NCBI RefSeq assembly: GCF_002300555.2
Contig: NZ_NTHN02000001.1
Span: forward strand, 124,001-188,000
DNA: 64,000 nt
Direction: 5' to 3'
Origin: Alloyangia mangrovi
Lineage (GTDB): Bacteria > Pseudomonadota > Alphaproteobacteria > Rhodobacterales > Rhodobacteraceae
Shown piece after piece: positions 8,604 through 16,748 of the stretch. The position numbers and the translations under genes are program-made. The notes under the pieces were generated by a model that did not search any database, was not told where the DNA came from, and was given only the letters and a program-made list of their open reading frames with translations. How positions within the stretch are numbered: position 1 is the first letter of the stretch; each line of letters opens with the position of its first letter.

Positions 8604-10337
8604 TCATGATGCCGCCGCGCCCCCTGATTGGGCAGACGCGGCGCGCGCGGCTTCGCTGTCGAGAAGAGCCTTCTTCGACAGCTTGCCGACCGGGGTCTTC
8701 GGCAGGCTCTCGCAGATCTGGATGTGCTTGGGCATCTCGATGGGCGAGAGATATTCCTTGAGGAAGTCCTGCAGCGCGTCCTCGGGAGTCTCGAGGGGGG
8801 TCTTCAGCACCACGAACGCCTTGGGCGCGCTGCCGCGATAGGCGTCCGGCACGCCGATCACCGCGGCCTCGGCCACCGCCGGGTGCTGGTAGAGGGCTTC
8901 TTCGATGACCCGCGGGTAGACGTTGTAGCCGCTGCAGAGGATCACGTCCTTGATCCGGTCGACGATGAAATAGAAGCCGTCCTCGTCGACATAGCCGACA
9001 TCCCCGGTCCGCAGCGCGCCGTCGACGAAGGTCGCACGAGTCTCGTCAGGGCGGTTCCAATAGCCCTGCATGACCTGCGGGCCGCGCACGCAGAGCTCGC
9101 CCTTTTCATGTGGTCCGCACAGGCGGGTCGGGTCGGCGAGATCGCGGATCTCCACCTGCGTGCCGGCCAGCGGCTTGCCGATTGATCCGTCGCGCGCGCT
9201 GCCGTCGAAGGGGTTGCAGCAGACCACCGGCGAGCTTTCGGACAGGCCGTAGCCTTCGCTGAGGCGGCAGCCGCTCAGGGCCTCGAAGCCGCGGCGGACC
9301 TCGCCCGGCAGGGGCGCGCCTCCCGAGATGCAGCAGCGCAGCGAGGACAGATCCGCCGGGCGCTTCTCGAGCGCGTGGTTGATCGCGGTGTAGAGCGTCG
9401 GCACGCCGGGAAAGAGCGTCGGCTTCTGGCGCTCGATCACCTTGATCGTTCCCTCGATGTCGAAGCGCGGCACCAGGATGATCTCGGCGGCGATCCGCAC
9501 GGCGAGGTTCATCGCCACGGTCATGCCGAAGACATGGAACAGCGGCAGCACCGCCAGAACCCGCTCCTCGCCCATTTTGGGAGCGGGCAGCCGCTGGAGG
9601 ATCTGCTCGGCATTGGCGACGATATTGGCGTGGGTCAGCATCGCGCCCTTGGAAAGCCCGGTTGTTCCGCCGGTGTATTGCAGGGTGGCAAGGTCGGTCT
9701 CGGGGGTGATCGCGGGCGGGGTCACGGCGCCGGGCGTCCGGGTCAGCTGCCGGAAAGAGATGTGCCGGGCATCGGTGGGAATGCGGGCAAGCTCGTGGCG
9801 TTTCAGAAGCGGGAAGAGCAGTCCCTTGAGCGGGGGCAACATCTCGGCCATCGGACAGATGACCAGCCGCTCCAGCGCGCCGCGCCCGAGCTGCGCCGCC
9901 ACCTTGGGATAGATCGCGGCCAAATCCGTGGTGACCATGAGCGAAATGCCCGAGTCCTCGATCTGGTGCTGCAGCTCGCGGGGGGCATAGAGCGGGTTGA
10001 AGTTCACCACCGTGCCGCCGGCCTTGAGCACCGCGAAGTAGCAGATGACGAAGGCAGGCATGTTGGGCAGGCAGAGCCCGACGCGGACACCCTTGGTGAC
10101 GCCTTGCTGCGCAAAACCCGCAGCCGCCCGGTCAACAAGCGCGCCGAGCTCCCGATAGCTGTAGCGGCGCCCGAGGAAATGCATGGCGGGGCGATCGCCG
10201 TGCAGGCGCACCGCGCTGTCGAGGAGCGCGGAGACGGTTCCGGCGAGGGTGGGCATCTCGCCCGCGGCGGGCTCGGACGCACCCGTGGCATCCCGGGGCG
10301 GGATCAGAGTGTCGGGTGCGATGTCATTCGGGCTCAT
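8604..10337 (-). CDS. fadD: Long-chain acyl-CoA synthetase (AMP-forming)
   Basis: Adenylate-forming enzyme that activates fatty acids to acyl-CoA. The P-loop-like motif YTGGTTGLSKGA lies at about residues 221-232, GYGLSESSPVV follows, then the hinge and A8 region (TGDVGYVDEDGFYFIVDRIKD) and the C-terminal lysine in PKTPVGKLSKKAL. The start at 10337 gives 577 residues and has GGAG 9 nt upstream; an in-frame ATG at 10400 lacks a clear ribosome site and adds a 21-residue tail. It is downstream of fadL and upstream of the MerR gene, so uptake, activation and regulation are adjacent. Confidence 0.9.
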   Translation of the reverse strand: MSPNDIAPDTLIPPRDATGASEPAAGEMPTLAGTVSALLDSAVRLHGDRPAMHFLGRRYSYRELGALVDRAAAGFAQQGVTKGVRVGLCLPNMPAFVICYFAVLKAGGTVVNFNPLYAPRELQHQIEDSGISLMVTTDLAAIYPKVAAQLGRGALERLVICPMAEMLPPLKGLLFPLLKRHELARIPTDARHISFRQLTRTPGAVTPPAITPETDLATLQYTGGTTGLSKGAMLTHANIVANAEQILQRLPAPKMGEERVLAVLPLFHVFGMTVAMNLAVRIAAEIILVPRFDIEGTIKVIERQKPTLFPGVPTLYTAINHALEKRPADLSSLRCCISGGAPLPGEVRRGFEALSGCRLSEGYGLSESSPVVCCNPFDGSARDGSIGKPLAGTQVEIRDLADPTRLCGPHEKGELCVRGPQVMQGYWNRPDETRATFVDGALRTGDVGYVDEDGFYFIVDRIKDVILCSGYNVYPRVIEEALYQHPAVAEAAVIGVPDAYRGSAPKAFVVLKTPLETPEDALQDFLKEYLSPIEMPKHIQICESLPKTPVGKLSKKALLDSEAARAASAQSGGAAAS

Positions 10338-10496
10338 GAGCAAGGGCTCCGGGTACAGGACGGCTGGTCCGGCGCTCGGGGAGCGCAGGCTGTTGGTCAT
10401 GGCCAGGGATCCCGGACATGGCTCTTTCGTTGGGGTGGCAGGTGCCCTCCGGTGCCCCGCGCATCGCATGTGCCATGCGCGGGGTCCGGTGGCGGA

Positions 10497-11774
10497 TCAG
10501 AACCTGTAGGTCAGGCTGGCACTCAGGATATCGGCGTGGCCTTCATAGGTGCCCTTGAGGGTGCCGAAGGCGGTCGTTTCCTCAATGTCGGCGTCGTCGA
10601 AGAAGATATGCGTGTAACCGAAGTTGATCGTCCGATCCGGCGCGAACTCGTAGCTGTAGCCCAGCGATGCCCAGTAGCGGTCGGAATCGGGGATCCGGGC
10701 TGTCCGATTGTCGTTCGGCACCGGGCTCTGGTCGTAGGCGACACCGAAATGGATCGTGTGGTTCTCGCGCGGCTTGTAGTCAGCCCCGAGGGCGACGAAC
10801 CAGGAGTCGTGCCAGTTTTCTTCGGTGACGCTGTCGGCCCGGCCATCGTCGAATTTCACCCGCAGCTCGTCGAAAGTCGACCAGTTCGTCCACGAGACGT
10901 CGCCCATCACCGCCCATTGCGGGTTTATCTCATGATAGGCCCCGATGGACACGACATCGGGCATGGTCACTTCGGCCTCGGCATCGGAGCTTCGAAGCGC
11001 CGGCACCGCGGAGACATAGGCATCCGGCACGCCGGTGATCTTGGCGGTGCCCTCGAGCGTGTATTTCGCCTTGGAGCGATAGCTCAATCCGACCCGCGTC
11101 GTCGGCGCGATGTCGTAGAGCAGGCCCAGCGTGAAGCCGTATCCGTAGCCGTCGCCGGTCAGTTCCGATTTCCCGTCGCCGAGACCGAGCGTCGTGAGAT
11201 TAAGCGCGTTCGATAGCGTAGCGTCGGCATGGCCGATCTGGATGCCGGCCCCCAGCGACAGCTGGTCGGTTGCCTGCCAGGCGATGCTCGGTGTCAGGAC
11301 GAGGTTCTGGATCTCGCTCTCGATGGCGAAATAGCGGCCTTTCCAGTCCTCGTCGTACTCGGTGGCAAGGCCGAAGGGCACGGTCAGCGAAAGACCCGCC
11401 TTGATCGTGGGCGTGAGGTCGATGAGGCCGTAGAACGCCGGGACGAGCGTGCTCTCGCCCGCGTCTCCGCCGCTGTTGCCGGAATAGCTGAAACCGGCCA
11501 CTCCCGCGTCGCCCGAGAAGCGGATCGACGGGGCGATATAGTTCAGGTCAATCTGGGCCTGCGTGCCCGGGATATGCGTCATCCCGGCGGGGTTGGTGTA
11601 GATCGTGGACAGGTCCGTCGCCTTGGCGGTCGCGCCGGAAAAGGCCGTACCCACGCCTTCGGCGCTCATCTCACGTAACTGGAACCCGGCGGCATTCGCC
11701 TTGTCCGTCAATGGCAAGAGCGCAATCACTGCTCCTGCCGCCACAATAGCGGAATGCTTCACGCATCCAGACAT
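10497..11774 (-). CDS. fadL: FadL/OmpP1 family outer membrane fatty acid transporter
   Basis: A 425-residue outer-membrane beta-barrel protein. The signal peptide is residues 1-28 (cleavage near ANA-AGF). The mature N-terminus AGFQLREMSAEGVGTAFSG and the NPAGM motif are FadL-family hallmarks, many alternating aromatic strands follow, and the chain ends SLTYRF with the terminal phenylalanine typical of barrel proteins. It passes long-chain fatty acids or other hydrophobic substrates across the outer membrane. It is the first gene of the minus-strand fad run and has the large palindrome 60 bp upstream. Confidence 0.9.
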   Translation of the reverse strand: MSGCVKHSAIVAAGAVIALLPLTDKANAAGFQLREMSAEGVGTAFSGATAKATDLSTIYTNPAGMTHIPGTQAQIDLNYIAPSIRFSGDAGVAGFSYSGNSGGDAGESTLVPAFYGLIDLTPTIKAGLSLTVPFGLATEYDEDWKGRYFAIESEIQNLVLTPSIAWQATDQLSLGAGIQIGHADATLSNALNLTTLGLGDGKSELTGDGYGYGFTLGLLYDIAPTTRVGLSYRSKAKYTLEGTAKITGVPDAYVSAVPALRSSDAEAEVTMPDVVSIGAYHEINPQWAVMGDVSWTNWSTFDELRVKFDDGRADSVTEENWHDSWFVALGADYKPRENHTIHFGVAYDQSPVPNDNRTARIPDSDRYWASLGYSYEFAPDRTINFGYTHIFFDDADIEETTAFGTLKGTYEGHADILSASLTYRF

Positions 11775-11833
11775 TGATCGCTCCTCCCTAAAAACGATCG
11801 GATTTCTGAAATCCGTAAGCTTTGGTAGCGATG

Positions 11834-11871
11834 CATAACCAATACGTCAACAGGTTTACGTAATGGTTATG
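11834..11871 (-). promoter_or_regulatory. 38-bp inverted repeat upstream of fadL, candidate operator
   Basis: Arms CATAACCAATACGT and ACGTAATGGTTATG match at 13 of 14 positions around a 10-nt spacer. Read on the minus strand, TTGACG lies in this element and could be a -35 for fadL, with TACCAA 17 bp on as a weak -10. The ACGTCAA/TTTACGT core recalls sites of MerR regulators that control acyl-CoA degradation (LiuR type), and a MerR gene lies in the same locus. The pairing of site and regulator is inference. Confidence 0.6.
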
Positions 11872-12232
11872 TCGAGTGGCTCGCCAGGATCGAGACCGCG
11901 CAAGCGCTATTTAAAGGCGATGCGCGATCTGGTTCACGTTTGGCCGGAATTTACGCTGCGTCGCGGCGGGTTGCAGGCCTTTGCGCCGGCCTGAGGAAAG
12001 TGCGACGGATTGTCCGGCCAGATTCTGGCCGGCATGCTGGGAGGTGGGTCGGTCAGAAGGTGGCGCTTTGGGAGGAGCGGCCATCTCCAGCGATCCGGTC
12101 GCCTCTCGAGGAGAAGGGGCGGCCGGACGAGCGCTCCGGCGCCTTTGGAGCGGCTTGGCAGGTCAGTGAAGAGCCGGGCCATGTCTAGCTGCGGTATGCA
12201 TGCAACACAAAACAGGTCTGCAAAGCTGACCG
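11872..12232. other. Intergenic region without a supported gene
   Basis: About 360 bp between the fadL palindrome and the small-RNA promoter. Several overlapping open frames of 60-105 codons exist on both strands, but they are arginine- and glycine-rich with no recognisable domain and no good ribosome site, so I call none of them. In particular there is no DUF1127 gene of the kind that precedes CcsR-type RNAs in Rhodobacter. Confidence 0.5.
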
Positions 12233-12261
12233 TTGTGCTGCAAAGCAGCATTGTGTAGATA
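12233..12261 (+). promoter_or_regulatory. Candidate promoter of the hairpin small RNA
   Basis: TTGTGC at 12233-12238 and TAGATA at 12256-12261 are separated by exactly 17 bp. The predicted start falls just before the first of three consecutive perfect hairpins. The spacer itself contains a small hairpin (GCTGC-AAA-GCAGC). It is inferred from spacing and position only. Confidence 0.45.
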
Positions 12262-12265
12262 TGTT

Positions 12266-12465
12266 CTCAAGACGCAGAGATGCGTCTGCGAGTTTCCCGG
12301 GGTTCTCTCCTCCTCCCTGAACCCCGGAAATTGGCGGCGACCCTTCTCCTCCTCCCTTGGGTCGCCGCCGCACTCACCTCCTGATCGCAAGACATTTGAA
12401 TGGCTCTGCCAACCTGCGAAGCCCGCGGTAACGTCGTGGCCGCGCGGGCCAATTGGCAGGTTTTT
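12266..12465 (+). ncRNA. CcsR/cuckoo-type small RNA with two anti-Shine-Dalgarno loops
   Basis: Three perfect hairpins occur in a row. The first (12270-12287) has arms AGACGCA/TGCGTCT and a GAGA loop. The second (12297-12327) has arms CCGGGGTTC/GAACCCCGG and a 13-nt loop containing CCTCCTCCC at 12309-12317. The third (12333-12369) has arms GGCGGCGACCC/GGGTCGCCGCC and a 15-nt loop containing CCTCCTCCC at 12348-12356. Two stem-loops that each expose CCUCCUCCC are the defining feature of the alphaproteobacterial CcsR (UpsM-linked) or cuckoo RNAs, which bind ribosome-site-like sequences. A further CACCTCCTGA follows at 12375-12384. The 3' end is placed at the terminator-like structure; a shorter RNA ending near 12372 by processing is equally possible. 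Confidence 0.7.
12406..12465 (+). terminator. Terminator-like structure after the small RNA
   Basis: An outer stem CTGCCAA (12406-12412) with TTGGCAG (12453-12459) encloses an inner stem GCCCGCG (12421-12427) with CGCGGGC (12443-12449), and is followed by GTTTTT. It could end the small RNA; the compound stem is unusual for an intrinsic terminator. Confidence 0.45.
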
Positions 12466-12556
12466 GCCGTTTCCGGTCATGATATTGGCGGATGCTTGCA
12501 ATGCCCGCGGGCTGGCGCAGTCTGATCCCGATTGGCTTCGGGAGATTTTGGCCATT

Positions 12557-12751
12557 ATGCAAAGACCGCGTTTTCAAGCCGGTACGAGAGTTCTCGTGCA
12601 GCCAAAGAAGAGACGGCCGCGGGAGATTGGACTTGTCACGGACGGACCGATGATCGTGTCGGGCGATCCCTTCTTCAAGGTCGAGACCAGCGAGATTGCG
12701 GCTTGGTACTCTGTCGAGCACATTCGTCCCTACCTCAGGGTTGTCGAATAG
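12557..12751 (+). CDS. Small hypothetical protein (64 aa)
   Basis: I do not recognise this protein. The frame begins MQRPRFQAGTRVLVQPKKRR and ends EHIRPYLRVVE; the basic N-terminal half followed by short beta-like stretches (VLVQ, EIGLVTD, MIVSG) looks like a small KOW/SH3-like barrel, similar in style to YodC/DUF2158 proteins, but I cannot assign it. The ATG at 12557 has GGGAGA 11 nt upstream. The frame stays open upstream to 12233, but that part overlaps the hairpin RNA and is low in recognisable protein features, so the short form is preferred. Confidence 0.4.
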   Translation: MQRPRFQAGTRVLVQPKKRRPREIGLVTDGPMIVSGDPFFKVETSEIAAWYSVEHIRPYLRVVE

Positions 12752-12872
12752 CTCCGGGCGCGCGTCGGCGCTCCCTCTGCTCATGCCACCTGCGCCCGGG
12801 CTGGCCGAGCTTGGGCGGAGTGGTGGCATTGTTCCCCCGACCTCTCAGGGAAGAACCTCTGCTAAGCGGGGT

Positions 12873-13376
12873 TCACGAGGGAGGCTGCAGCCTGGTGTCG
12901 AGCGTGAAACGGGTCTGCTGGACATCGTCGTAAAGTCCCTCAGCCTGGTCCGCGTCCATGAGCAGGTTCCAACTGAAACGGGACACAGCCGAGGGAATCA
13001 GGAAGCACCCATGCCTTGCCAGCAGGTCGTTTCCGAACTTCTGCTGGTTGCGGCTGAGCGGCGCCGGGCTGATCCAATGCGGGTTGGGGATGTCGTCGGG
13101 GTAGACGACATGGAGCTTTGCCGGCGCGACGATCCGCGCCGAGGTGAGGAAGTGGGGAGCGATGTCCAGCGCCTCGAATCCCTTGTGAACCGCGACCTCA
13201 AGGCAGGCGGTGGCAGGGTCGAGGGACGCATAGATCGCCCGCACTCCCGAGGTATTCCACCGGCCACCGACGCGGAAGGCGCCCTCGCCGGTGAACCATG
13301 TCTGGTAGTGCTTTTTCTGGTCGATGCGCCAGAATCTGAAGTCTCCGGTCCCGAGGGGCGGCGGCAGGGGCGTCAT
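12873..13376 (-). CDS. RES domain toxin (NAD-degrading)
   Basis: A 167-residue RES-domain protein. The name-giving arginine, glutamate and serine can be placed in FRFWRI/GGRWNTSG, ATACLEVAVHK and the later SAVSRFSWN segment; IYASLDPATACLEV is the characteristic core. RES toxins related to MbcT arrest growth by consuming NAD+. The start codon overlaps the stop of the preceding Xre-family antitoxin as ATGA, the usual antitoxin-first order. The product acts in the cytoplasm and should be held inactive by its neighbour. NAD phosphorolysis versus hydrolysis cannot be decided from sequence. Confidence 0.9.
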   Translation of the reverse strand: MTPLPPPLGTGDFRFWRIDQKKHYQTWFTGEGAFRVGGRWNTSGVRAIYASLDPATACLEVAVHKGFEALDIAPHFLTSARIVAPAKLHVVYPDDIPNPHWISPAPLSRNQQKFGNDLLARHGCFLIPSAVSRFSWNLLMDADQAEGLYDDVQQTRFTLDTRLQPPS

Positions 13377-13840
13377 GTATAGACCCCGTACTCCATGCGG
13401 GTCAGGTATTCTTCAACCACTTCCGCTCCGGCAGAGGTTGCGACAAGGTCGATCGGGCAGCGGCGCTCCAAGCCGATCGCCGGCTTGTTCATCCAGTCCA
13501 CCGCGGCGGCTTCGGAGCCAAGGACCTCGATCGCCTTGCCGAAGATCTCGGCGAAGCGCCAGGCACGACTGCTCTGTTCGCGGCTGAGCAACTCATCCGC
13601 GCCCTTGGCCTTCATCCGCTGCAGGGTCCGCACGGAAATCCCGACCGCATTGTATAGGGCCGGGCCCTGATCAAGGAACCCGACCGAGGAGACGAGATGC
13701 AGGAGCGCGCCCGCCGGCAGCCCCTTCATCAGGACCTCATGCGCGTCGAGCGCGCTGTTGACCTTGGCCTCCATGGTCTTCTCGCCCCCGAGGAGGTGGA
13801 CGGCGCGGCCGATGTCGCTGTCGAAATGAGTGGCTTCCAT
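13373..13840 (-). CDS. Xre/MbcA/ParS family antitoxin (DUF2384)
   Basis: A 155-residue antitoxin. The N-terminal part (about 25-95) is a helical Xre-like region with VGISVRTLQRMKAKG as recognition segment; the C-terminal DUF2384 domain carries WMNKPAIGLERRCPIDLVAT and ends VEEYLTRMEYGVYT, the highly typical tail that binds RES toxins. The ATG at 13840 is preceded at 7 nt by GGAGGGT (13847-13853), a strong ribosome site; upstream in-frame starts are rejected. It is co-transcribed with the toxin (4-bp overlap) and likely represses its own promoter through the repeat at 13865-13883. Confidence 0.9.
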   Translation of the reverse strand: MEATHFDSDIGRAVHLLGGEKTMEAKVNSALDAHEVLMKGLPAGALLHLVSSVGFLDQGPALYNAVGISVRTLQRMKAKGADELLSREQSSRAWRFAEIFGKAIEVLGSEAAAVDWMNKPAIGLERRCPIDLVATSAGAEVVEEYLTRMEYGVYT

Positions 13841-13864
13841 GTCATGACCCTCCATCGCGTCACA

Positions 13865-13883
13865 TGTCGCAATATATACGACA
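13865..13883 (-). promoter_or_regulatory. Candidate promoter/operator of the toxin-antitoxin pair
   Basis: An inverted repeat TGTCG/CGACA with a 9-nt AT-rich centre lies 25 bp upstream of the antitoxin start. On the minus strand the centre contains TATATT, a good -10 candidate, so a bound antitoxin would block transcription. This matches the usual autoregulation of RES-Xre modules; binding is inferred. Confidence 0.5.
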
Positions 13884-14093
13884 CGCGGCGCAAAGTTCAA
13901 GATGGCGGCCCGGCATGACGCGCGCTTCGGAAATGCCGGACAAAGCCCTTTGCGGGGTTCTCGTTTTGTGCTAGGAGGGGTCTCCGCCGGAAAATCCGGT
14001 GGACACCCGAACATCCAGCGCTTGCCAGTGGACGACATGTCTCGCCCTGCTGGGCTTGCCATGTCCGGGCAACGAAAAAGGGAGAACATTCAC

Positions 14094-14264
14094 ATGGGTA
14101 TTTTCAGCCGCGAACAGACCACCGCCATCGAGCGACTGCTGCAGCAGGGCGTGTCCGATTTCGACATTGCCCAGAAAATTTGTCCCGCCGGAGAGGATCC
14201 GGAGCTGCTGCTCGAGGCGGTTTCCATGCACCGCGACCGGCATGAAAAGGCCACCTTGGCCTGA
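14094..14264 (+). CDS. Small hypothetical protein (56 aa)
   Basis: Starts MGIFSREQTTAIERLLQQG and ends HRDRHEKATLA. It is an acidic, helical protein with no domain I recognise. The ATG has a strong ribosome site (AAAGGGAGA, 8 nt upstream), and a convincing intrinsic terminator follows 25 bp after the stop, so this is a well-delimited single-gene transcript. The frame is open further upstream, but only this start has a ribosome site. It lies divergent from the toxin-antitoxin pair. Function is unknown. Confidence 0.6.
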   Translation: MGIFSREQTTAIERLLQQGVSDFDIAQKICPAGEDPELLLEAVSMHRDRHEKATLA

Positions 14265-14288
14265 CGCCGATAGACAGCCTGATTTTCT

Positions 14289-14322
14289 GAGCCCGCTGGA
14301 GAGTTGCTCCGGTGGGCTCTTT
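14289..14322 (+). terminator. Intrinsic terminator after the 56-aa gene
   Basis: A 13-bp stem (GAGCCCGCTGGAG with CTCCGGTGGGCTC, two G-T wobbles) with a 5-nt loop is followed by TTTGATT. It lies 24 bp after the small-protein stop codon. Confidence 0.75.
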
Positions 14323-14423
14323 GATTCAGAGGCGGTGCGCCCTGTCGACCTGGGGGCCTGTTCCGGCGTTTGGCGATCGCCGATCATCGCGGCCAAGGCC
14401 GATGCCGCCGCTCTCGCGCGGCC

Positions 14424-15548
14424 TCAGAGGGCCGCGCGGTAGATGTCGTGAATATCCTCCACGCTCATGTCGCGCGGGTTGTTGTCCATGAGCCGCCGGA
14501 TGGCATGCGCCTCGCCAGCCCAGCCTTCCAGCGCGGGCGCTTCAGCGCCATGCGCCGAGAGGCGCATCTCCACGCCCAGATCGGCGCAGAACCCATGCGC
14601 CGCCATCAGCAGACCCTCGGGGCTGCCCGCCCCGGCCAGTCCGAGTGCGGCCGAGACCTCGGCGGTCTTTTCTGGGCGCACCGGCTGGTTGAAGGCCAGA
14701 ACATGCGGGAAGATGATCGCATTCGCCAGCCCGTGCGGCAGCGACAGGCGGGTGCCGAGCGGATAGGCCAGCGCATGGCCTGCGGCGGTGTTCACCGGCC
14801 CGAGGCAGAGGCCGCCGTAGTAGCTGGCCAGCATCATCCCCGCCCGCGCCTCGGAATCGGCGCCGTTCTCGACCGCGCGTCGAAGGAACCTGCCGACCAG
14901 AGAGATGCCGAGCCGTGCGTAGGCGTCGATCAGGTCGTGGGCGCGGATGTTGGTGAAGGCCTCGACGCAATGCGCCATGGCGTCGATCCCGGTCGCTGCG
15001 GTGACCGCGGGCGGTACGGAGTAGGTTAGCTCGGGGTCAAGAATGGCGATATCGGCCAGCAGGTAGGGGCTCTCAACCGCCACCTTGGACTTCGTCTCGG
15101 GATCGGTCAGCAGCGCGCGGATGCCGGCCTCCGAGCCTGTACCGGCGGTGGTGGCCACCTGGGCGAGTCTGGTGCGGCGTCCGGAGACCCTGTTCGGCCC
15201 GGCCACCTCCGCCAGAGCCTGCGGGCTGTCCCAGAGCGCGGCGGTCAGCTTGGCCACGTCGAGCACCGAGCCGCCGCCCAGGCCGACCACGAGGTCGGGA
15301 CCATGCGCGCGGGCCACCTCGAGCACCGCTTCGAACGCGGGAATGTCGGGCTCGGGCGGGACGTTGTCGATCACACGGACGTCGCCGCTCAGGCCGAGGC
15401 GCTCGACATATTGCTGCGTCGGGCCGCTGGCGATGACCAAGGGGCGCGCGGCCCCCTCGGCCCAGGTGCCGAGCGTACGCGCTGCGCCGGTGCCGATTTC
15501 GAGCCGTGGCGGCTGGTGCAGGGTGATGGGGCGGTCCATGCCGAACAT
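14424..15548 (-). CDS. Iron-containing alcohol dehydrogenase (maleylacetate-reductase-like)
   Basis: A 374-residue group III alcohol dehydrogenase. GGGS at 91-94 is the cofactor motif, TTAGTGSE (133-140) is typical, and the metal ligands are visible as D189, H193, H258 and H272 with the spacing expected for this family. Such enzymes oxidise alcohols or reduce aldehydes, ketones or maleylacetate with NAD(P)H. It starts 30 bp after the sialidase-like gene on the same strand and likely forms an operon with it, divergent from a peptide-type ABC importer. The real substrate is unknown; a sugar-acid or keto-acid derivative is an inference from the context. Confidence 0.85.
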   Translation of the reverse strand: MFGMDRPITLHQPPRLEIGTGAARTLGTWAEGAARPLVIASGPTQQYVERLGLSGDVRVIDNVPPEPDIPAFEAVLEVARAHGPDLVVGLGGGSVLDVAKLTAALWDSPQALAEVAGPNRVSGRRTRLAQVATTAGTGSEAGIRALLTDPETKSKVAVESPYLLADIAILDPELTYSVPPAVTAATGIDAMAHCVEAFTNIRAHDLIDAYARLGISLVGRFLRRAVENGADSEARAGMMLASYYGGLCLGPVNTAAGHALAYPLGTRLSLPHGLANAIIFPHVLAFNQPVRPEKTAEVSAALGLAGAGSPEGLLMAAHGFCADLGVEMRLSAHGAEAPALEGWAGEAHAIRRLMDNNPRDMSVEDIHDIYRAAL

Positions 15549-15577
15549 TGCGGGTCTCCTTCGTGCGGGAACAGGGC

Positions 15578-16748
15578 CTAAGCGCCGAGCGCGGCCAGGG
15601 CGGCGGCGTCGAGGCGGACGTGACGGATGGCGCGCCGGTAAAGCGTGTAGGCAATGTCGAGCCCGCCGTCGGGTCGGGGCAGTAGGACGGGATAGGACAG
15701 CTCCTTGTTGTGCCCATCTAACGAGTTATTCGACAGGCAGGTGCCGGGGCTGTCCTCGATCACGTGGCGGACCGGGAAGCTGCGTCCGCCGTCGCGCGAC
15801 AGGCAGAGCGTCAGCGGTGCGCGCTCGACGCCCCAGATCGGGTTGCAGCCTTCCTCGGTCTCGGGGCGGTCGTCGCCCTCGTCGAGCTCGTCGTAGAGCG
15901 AGGCGCGGCGGGCATCCGATTGCGCGGCGGAGATTGGGTTGCAGACCAGCGCCAGCCGCCCCTCGCCGAGCATCGCAGCGCCGATCGAGCTGTTGTTATT
16001 GGGCACGTCGACGGCGGCGGGTGCGCTCCAGCTGCGCCCGCCGTCATGGCTTTCCGAGCGGTGCACCCAGTCGGCCTGTCGGCGGCGGTAGAAGGCGGCG
16101 AGTGACCCGTCGTCCAGCGGCACCGGGCTCATGTGGACGGCGCCGGGCGAGTCCGGTACCTCGGTGATCTCCCAGCTTGCGCCGCCGTCGGTGCTTACCG
16201 CCATGGCGGCGGTGTCGAAGGCACCGGTCCAGCGGATGCCGGGGCGGGGGTTGCAGCGGAACAGCGGCAGCATCCAGGCGCCATCGTCGCGCAGCAGCGG
16301 CGCGGCGCGGATGAAGGTGCCGGGCGGAAGGCCGGTGTCGCGGGCCGGGCCAGAGACGAGATGATCGCCGTCGCGGTGCAGGGGGCGCATGAACACCCGG
16401 GACTCGTCCTGGTTGCCGGCGGGCTGGGCGGTGTTGAAGAGCCAGATTGCACCATCCGCTGCGACGAAGATCACCGGGTTCTGTTCGGAGCGGTCGGGGT
16501 CATCGGTCAGCCGCACCGCAGCCCCCCCAGCGCGTGGCGCCCTCGTCCAGCAGGCAGCCGTGGATCGAGATGTCGGACTTGCCCTCGAGCGTGCCGCCGA
16601 ACCAGACGCAGGCAAGCGCACCATCCGGCATGCGGGCAAGGAAGGCCGCGTGGTTCTGCACCGTCGGCGCGGGCAGGATCGCCTCTTTGCCACCGTCCCT
16701 TGGCAGCAGCTCACCAGTCATTCCTGCAGCGATGTCTTCGGGTGTCAT
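15578..16748 (-). pseudogene. Sialidase/BNR-repeat family protein (frameshifted in this sequence)
   Basis: Two frames together encode a 389-residue sialidase-fold protein. The N-terminal part begins MTPEDIAAGMTGELLPRD and includes the family motif FLARMPDGALACVWFGGT; the C-terminal part has three Asp boxes (STDGGASW, SHDGGRSW, SRDGGRSF). The frames meet at a run of seven C at 16522-16528; six would restore continuity. There is no signal peptide, so the product is cytoplasmic, unlike classical secreted sialidases, and may be a glycosidase or lyase-like enzyme with the same six-bladed propeller. It is first in an operon with the iron alcohol dehydrogenase. The frameshift is probably a homopolymer miscount. 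Confidence 0.8.

Follow-up and report, generated by a model that had tools for sequence, protein, structure and literature searches.

The window analysed here is a stretch of 64,000 nucleotides from Alloyangia mangrovi, part of a 5.5-Mb draft genome (G000, contig C81), in which two multi-hairpin elements lie in succession on the plus strand (Table 1). The downstream element, at 12270-12373, comprises three hairpins, two of them with CCTCCTCCC loops. The upstream element, at 12023-12127 and about 105 bp 5′ of the promoter of the first, consists of three hairpins with GGGAGG or GAGG loops complementary to the cuckoo motif; this mirror-image element was absent from the initial annotation of the DNA. 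Divergent from the cuckoo locus lies a gene identified by Pfam as FadL (10497-11774, minus strand). On the other side, 12557-12751 (+) encodes a 64-aa protein that matches no Pfam family at E<=1, followed at 12873-14089 (-) by a RES-domain protein (PF08808) and an Xre/MbcA/ParS antitoxin (PF09722), which are likely a toxin-antitoxin pair and keep their order next to the locus on the A. pacifica plasmid. A 56-aa protein at 14094-14264 (+) has no Pfam family above the cut-off, and a relative of it, recognised by eye, is encoded between the partner element and the cuckoo RNA in loci of type B (L013-L015).

Table 1. Positions of the features discussed, in window coordinates, with the evidence for each.
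Feature	Position	Strand	Evidence or remark
AGGGAGGAG ribosome site of fadL (gene 10497-11774, -)	11781..11789	-	9/9 complementary to cuckoo loop; candidate local target
Anti-cuckoo hairpin 1, loop ATGCTGGGAGGTGG	12023..12058	+	model matches; -19.7 forward vs -6.7 kcal/mol reverse
Anti-cuckoo hairpin 2, loop GCTTTGGGAGGAGCG	12058..12086	+	-15.2 forward vs -11.3 kcal/mol reverse
Anti-cuckoo hairpin 3, loop CGAGGAGA	12094..12127	+	-24.9 forward vs -17.3 kcal/mol reverse
Promoter-like TTGTGC (12233-12238), 17 bp, TAGATA (12256-12261)	12233..12261	+	read from sequence; TTGnnn-N17-TA conservation
5′ hairpin AGACGCA-GAGA-TGCGTCT, GAGA loop	12270..12287	+	sequence, fold, covariation
First cuckoo hairpin, perfect 9 bp, loop CCTCCTCCC at 12309-12317	12297..12327	+	sequence, fold, covariation, within CcsR1 match
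Second cuckoo hairpin, perfect 11 bp, loop CCTCCTCCC at 12348-12356	12333..12369	+	sequence, fold, covariation, within CcsR1 match

The three hairpins of the downstream element had been proposed in the initial annotation, and all of them can be read directly from the sequence. The region 12290-12372 folds at -45.6 kcal/mol against -24.5 (sd 2.9) for shuffled sequences (z -7.3, equalled by 0/200 shuffles), and z is about -7 in both determinations (-7.2 and -7.3). The initial annotation had further suggested a comparison of related genomes for conserved and covarying stems, and both were found when 19 orphan cuckoo loci of Salipiger/Alloyangia, that of the window among them, were aligned: 96.0% of the cells are paired, 13/29 pairs are changed on both sides, and such double-sided changes occupy 42 cells against 12.2 in shuffles, with 0/500 shuffles reaching 42 and slid controls giving 2 to 9. 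One of five covariation measures, the number of further pair types, shows no excess (28 vs 26.6 in shuffles). In the 5′ hairpin, double-sided changes occur at 5/6 pairs, and its loop is of the GNRA kind in types A and W but not in B. The full CCUCCUCCC is kept in both loops of all 19 aligned RNAs. A protein reading, with the cuckoo region in the 5′ part of a 172-aa TTG frame, was discarded on account of the stem covariation.

The spacing of the promoter is conserved: TTGnnn-N17-TAnnnn stands 72-76 nt 5′ of the first loop in 17/19 orphan cuckoo loci, B_G012 and C116 being the exceptions. A sigma-70 consensus scan did not find a promoter for this RNA, so that the promoter with 17-bp spacing claimed initially rests on conservation. 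CcsR RNAs are characterised by stress induction that depends on RpoHI/RpoHII. According to the available text of PMC10673084, TTG and TAT are marks of RpoH promoters; the conserved TTG/TA fits these marks, without separating RpoH from sigma-70. A CATGC...TGCA block, seen by eye, recurs farther 5′ of the promoter. The terminator-like stem of the initial annotation was not confirmed: a terminator scan found none for the orphan cuckoo RNA, the fold of 12400-12470 is equalled by 2/200 shuffles (z -2.45), and no counterpart was seen by eye in the closest relative.

An Rfam scan of the whole window returned no family at its gathering score. Below that level, CcsR1 (RF02791) matches 12292-12373 over its full model with 55.2 bits (E 1.3e-12; gathering score 65.3), and ar14 (RF02344) likewise matches 12289-12397 over its full model with 48.1 bits (E 1.5e-7; gathering score 58.8). 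The CcsR/cuckoo identity first suggested for the RNA is therefore right in kind, and the RNA is a relative of CcsR1 and not a member by the Rfam rule, because its score lies below gathering. Nor does it have the form of ar14, as two CCUCCUCCC hairpins and the GAGA hairpin take the place of three CCUCCUCCC hairpins and the score is again sub-gathering. CcsR1-type matches at E<=0.01 number 5 to 14 per genome in 20/20 genomes of the genus, none of which has a match above the gathering score; the same search gave matches, below the cut-off, in 2/14 unrelated control genomes. The DUF1127 gene linked to CcsR RNAs at CIN1 loci was not seen among the ORFs of 9000-16000, of which six proteins were scanned with Pfam. 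This agrees with the initial statement for the window locus, while the genome itself does possess a standard locus on contig C110 (L004, about 2200-2940 of the locus), where a DUF1127 gene is followed by five tandem dual-hairpin cuckoo units, 5′ of a frame taken by eye for valyl-tRNA synthetase. The whole genome has 10 CcsR1-type matches at E<=0.01, and among the eight matches listed are four orphans (the window, C91 twice and C116) and four units of the C110 array.

Cuckoo RNAs were reportedly defined by Reinkensmeier and Giegerich in 2015, and the broad definition, known here at second hand, describes covarying hairpins that expose CCUCCUCCC, which is what the window RNA displays. In view of its fold, the CcsR1 and ar14 matches, the covariation, the conserved promoter and the standing of the DUF1127 locus elsewhere in the genome, the RNA at 12270-12373 (+) is a genuine orphan cuckoo RNA in the broad sense.

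Several related elements were noticed during the survey. Group C elements (L038, L052, L054, L058) have two hairpins which, in the opposite-strand reading, show CTCCTCCTCCC-type loops. The stretch fetched around them contains no other cuckoo, and they may form a further subfamily of cuckoo RNAs. Two hairpins with CTCTCCTCCC-type loops are found in L050 (about 1500-1620) and in L059. In L050 they follow directly 3′ of a phasin-like reading frame recognised by eye, and a 3′-UTR-derived anti-Shine-Dalgarno RNA is possible there. A long cuckoo array in another genus (L061, G045) packs eight CCTCCTCC-type loops into about 0.4 kb.

The mirror-image element upstream is itself a repeated and conserved structure. 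In its second hairpin, GGGAGGAG (12070-12077) is complementary to CTCCTCCC at every base. The element was modelled from ten copies and then from 19 rows, and the models match the window at 12022-12138 and 12022-12142 (G000:C81:136022-136138 and 136022-136142). The first model found matches in 15/20 genomes of the genus at E<=0.001, the refined one in 18/20 at the looser E<=0.05. After hand sorting, which kept 19 of 30 refined-model rows, there are 19 copies in 16/20 genomes, with G003, G004, G006 and G016 left without any. The rows dropped were antisense matches to cuckoo arrays (G004:C33, G008:C12, G012:C5:41381, G006:C5:355795), the four group C elements, readable by eye as opposite-strand cuckoos (energies were compared for L038 only), L053 with two hairpins only, and L050 and L059. 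The 19-row model-fitted alignment differs from the final 19 copies in that it includes L038 and lacks L048. BLAST with the C91 copy gave hits in 11/41 genomes, all of the own genus. With stricter filters, the first model matched 2 of 248 genomes that sample the family at roughly one per genus, both of them within the own genus; among 41 genomes the refined model matched 3, namely the own genome and two weak cases judged by eye to be non-partners, one of them antisense of a cuckoo array. At this sensitivity the element looks genus-restricted. A pattern scan of named genomes retrieved six stretches, three in Alloyangia/Salipiger and three from gut, Bacillales and Planctomycetota bins.

The copies fall into type W (the window, L018, L019), type A (tandem, in seven genomes) and type B (nine genomes). 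Their loops are mostly GGGAGG, GGAGG or GAGG and vary in length and register, and their stems covary. There are exceptions: such a loop is missing from hairpin 1 in type A and in G011, the motif has been lost from hairpin 2 of G001, and some hairpin 2 loops are reduced to GGGAG or GGGGAG. In the ten-copy alignment 96.8% of cells are paired and 14 cells show double-sided changes (4.5 in shuffles, 0/500), and in the 19 model-fitted rows there are 35 such changes (14.5 in shuffles, 0/500); further pair types show no excess over shuffles in either alignment. A block TGGAC[AT]-N17-TnnnnT precedes the element in 16/19 copies and is absent from all three W copies, including that of the window.

The element is closely linked to cuckoo RNAs. 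Seventeen of the 19 copies lie 155-736 nt from a cuckoo RNA (<0.75 kb), on the same strand in types A and W (9 copies) and convergently in type B (8). By our estimate, a site placed at random would come this close to a cuckoo (1 kb or less) in about 0.2% of cases, given roughly five cuckoo loci in 5.5 Mb. The other two copies are more than 1.5 kb from any cuckoo RNA: among the matches listed, the nearest cuckoo to L019 (G014:C3) lies on the same strand, about 7 kb further downstream, and that to the G008 element is tens of kb away.

Complementarity of the loops to the cuckoo loop was compared with that to the 16S rRNA tail. Of 43 loops, 39 form a more stable duplex with the cuckoo loop than with the tail. 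Near-duplicates were left out, as was hairpin 1 in type A and in G011, where the motif is missing, so that the proportion applies to motif-bearing loops. The mean duplex energies are -14.2 and -11.0 kcal/mol, respectively, against -8.6 and -7.8 kcal/mol for shuffled loops, and at least six exact complementary bases are found in 38 loops with the cuckoo loop and in 16 with the 16S tail. When the cost of opening is included, the two partner RNAs of the own genome are predicted to pair with each of five of its cuckoo RNAs with energies of -11.0 and -10.7 kcal/mol, compared with means of -6.9 and -6.8 for 30 shuffled cuckoos. The best values among the shuffled ones were -15.5 and -11.1 kcal/mol, so that pairing energy by itself is indecisive. 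As the predicted energy is alike for all five cuckoos, a sponge would not tell the siblings apart.

On these grounds a mechanism can be proposed for the locus. The region 12270-12373 would encode an orphan anti-Shine-Dalgarno small RNA transcribed from its own promoter, which, by analogy with NfeR1 and CcsR, may silence mRNAs with GGGAGGAG-like ribosome sites. The adjacent fadL is a candidate target: AGGGAGGAG-N3-9-ATG occurs at 30 sites in the genome, fadL among them, compared with 1 in a reversed control, and the fadL site is kept in the relative L018. The region 12023-12127 would encode a second small RNA whose three hairpin loops copy the ribosome site. Read from sequence, this second RNA would be transcribed and, in the cell, would form loop-loop pairs with cuckoo RNAs at their exposed CCUCCUCCC loops; the effect is expected to run against the cuckoo RNAs, which it may block or destabilise. 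We regard this reading, an orphan cuckoo under its own promoter with a linked RNA sponge for cuckoo RNAs beside it, as slightly better than an even bet. Its more general form comes a little short of even in our judgement: here anti-Shine-Dalgarno cuckoos and a genus-specific Shine-Dalgarno mirror with up to three loops, perhaps derived from an inverted cuckoo copy, would constitute a linked and mutually complementary multi-hairpin pair in which all siblings are titrated. The mirror-element model also picks up cuckoo RNAs in antisense, and the ar14 model does so with some of the mirror elements, a cross-scoring that fits an origin by inverted cuckoo duplication; short-loop complementarity on GC-rich stems would give the same signal.

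The strand is the weak point of the mirror-element reading, because the stems are palindromic. The element might instead be an opposite-strand RNA of the cuckoo/ar14 type and no sponge at all; it would then have three hairpins, like ar14, and CCUCCC loops. The ar14 model matches that strand at L006, L021 and L033 (37.3, 33.8 and 29.8 bits), three of four loci scanned, although loop complementarity alone would give such a match and none is seen at L018, the type W locus. Whole elements fold better forward in 17/19 rows, the exceptions being L012 (by 0.1) and L038, in a comparison that in a control recovered the known strand for 7/11 cuckoo units; the window copy stands at -63.8 forward against -39.9 kcal/mol. 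A strand-neutral hairpin search, which missed hairpin 2 of the window copy, counted 34 G-U and 24 A-C pairs, and the model-fitted alignment, which leans forward, 36 and 14. Energies per hairpin were compared in 15/19 copies (near-duplicates G009:C2, G015, G013 and G019 omitted; hairpin 1 of G011 and G002 blank). In type W, 9/9 hairpins are more stable on the GGGAGG strand, with loops masked as well. Hairpins 2 and 3 are forward in all of A (8/8) and B (16/16) unmasked, but with masking hairpin 2 of A ties in 4/4 and hairpins 2 and 3 of B tie in 3/8 each. Hairpin 1 goes the other way: the opposite strand is favoured in 6/6 of type B and in 2/4 of type A (one tie, one forward), or in 4/4 of the latter once masked. 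Several copies carry a TATCT-like block, seen by eye, on the side of that strand, whereas the forward block keeps its fixed 17-nt spacing in 16/19; T content behind either end is non-discriminating (4.8 vs 4.6 T of 14 in 18 copies). Moreover, the full CCUCCUCCC, present in all 19 orphan cuckoos, is missing from most opposite-strand loops. The evidence for the forward strand is thus clear for subfamily W and mixed elsewhere, and we consider an opposite-strand cuckoo unlikely.

If the forward strand is taken, the loops could still serve other partners. A ribosome-site decoy for 16S rRNA, or for another anti-Shine-Dalgarno family such as aR8 (Sis/MmgR), would account for the 4/43 loops that pair better with the 16S tail, and GGGAGGA also fits the aR8 core UUUCCUCCCU, as given in the available text of PMC12559287. 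The remaining 39 loops and the genomic linkage point to cuckoo RNAs instead; of 14 TTTCCTCCCT (aR8 core) sites in the genome, 9 were classed by script as ribosome sites of the other strand, facing a start codon, and no clear aR8 gene was recognised by eye among the 14. This reading is improbable. Several hairpin loops contain GGA, which resembles CsrB/RsmZ, yet a decoy for a CsrA/RsmA-type protein can practically be dismissed and was rejected, since CsrA (PF02599) was found in 0/20 genomes of the genus while 3/14 control genomes are positive. A different doubt concerns the window copy itself, which might be a decaying remnant beside a cuckoo RNA that alone is active here: it lacks the TGGAC block, its third loop retains only CGAGGAGA, and it scores 99.6 bits with the first model, whereas the genome's second copy reaches 152.7. 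Its three stems nevertheless still fold well forward and the A. pacifica plasmid copy has the same layout and gene order, which makes such decay improbable as well.

The CcsR1-4 RNAs of Rhodobacter sphaeroides are products of the ccaF1 transcript with a role in stress, according to the available text of PMC8307010, PMC8625941 and PMC10253847. The window RNA shares with them (RF02791; CIN1 locus, PMC10253847) dual hairpins with CCUCCUCCC loops (E 1.3e-12), and differs in its sub-gathering score, its own promoter, the lack of a DUF1127 gene at the locus and the additional 5′ hairpin. NfeR1, an ar14 RNA of Sinorhizobium meliloti, uses redundant CCUCCUCCC motifs to silence mRNAs at the ribosome site (PMC10746234, in the part available). 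The likeness to ar14 (RF02344) lies in the CCUCCUCCC hairpins, of which ar14 RNAs are described as having three and the window RNA has two, at 48.1 bits against a gathering score of 58.8. Since cuckoo and ar14 RNAs occur in several copies with one common seed, a multi-loop complementary sponge beside an orphan cuckoo gene, if confirmed, would be a simple common off-switch by which the siblings are silenced jointly. The conserved mirror-image neighbour is what is added here beyond the orphan cuckoo RNA. On its GGGAGG strand, Rfam gives weak chance-level matches only, and no partner of this kind for cuckoo, CcsR or ar14 RNAs was seen in the literature searched, which was largely without subscription papers. 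Bacterial sponge RNAs that sequester small RNAs include QrrX, SroC and AgvB (as cited in the available text of PMC12559287), none of which is described there as a mirror-image multi-hairpin RNA. The closest parallel is CrfA of Caulobacter crescentus, reported in 2025, in which a G/A-rich stem-loop sequesters four sibling anti-Shine-Dalgarno small RNAs, SisA-D of the aR8 family (PMC12559287, in the part available), so that such sponge logic exists in another alphaproteobacterium. Both are alphaproteobacterial RNAs with G/A-rich stem-loops complementary to the anti-Shine-Dalgarno core common to sibling small RNAs, the mirror-image element having loops complementary to a seed that the cuckoo siblings share. 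In the Caulobacter system, as far as that text describes it, the aR8 siblings present a single-stranded UUUCCUCCCU to one CrfA stem-loop and the linkage of crfA to its targets is unmentioned, whereas here the cuckoo siblings carry CCUCCUCCC in loops, and the putative sponge offers up to three complementary loops and adjoins a cuckoo gene.
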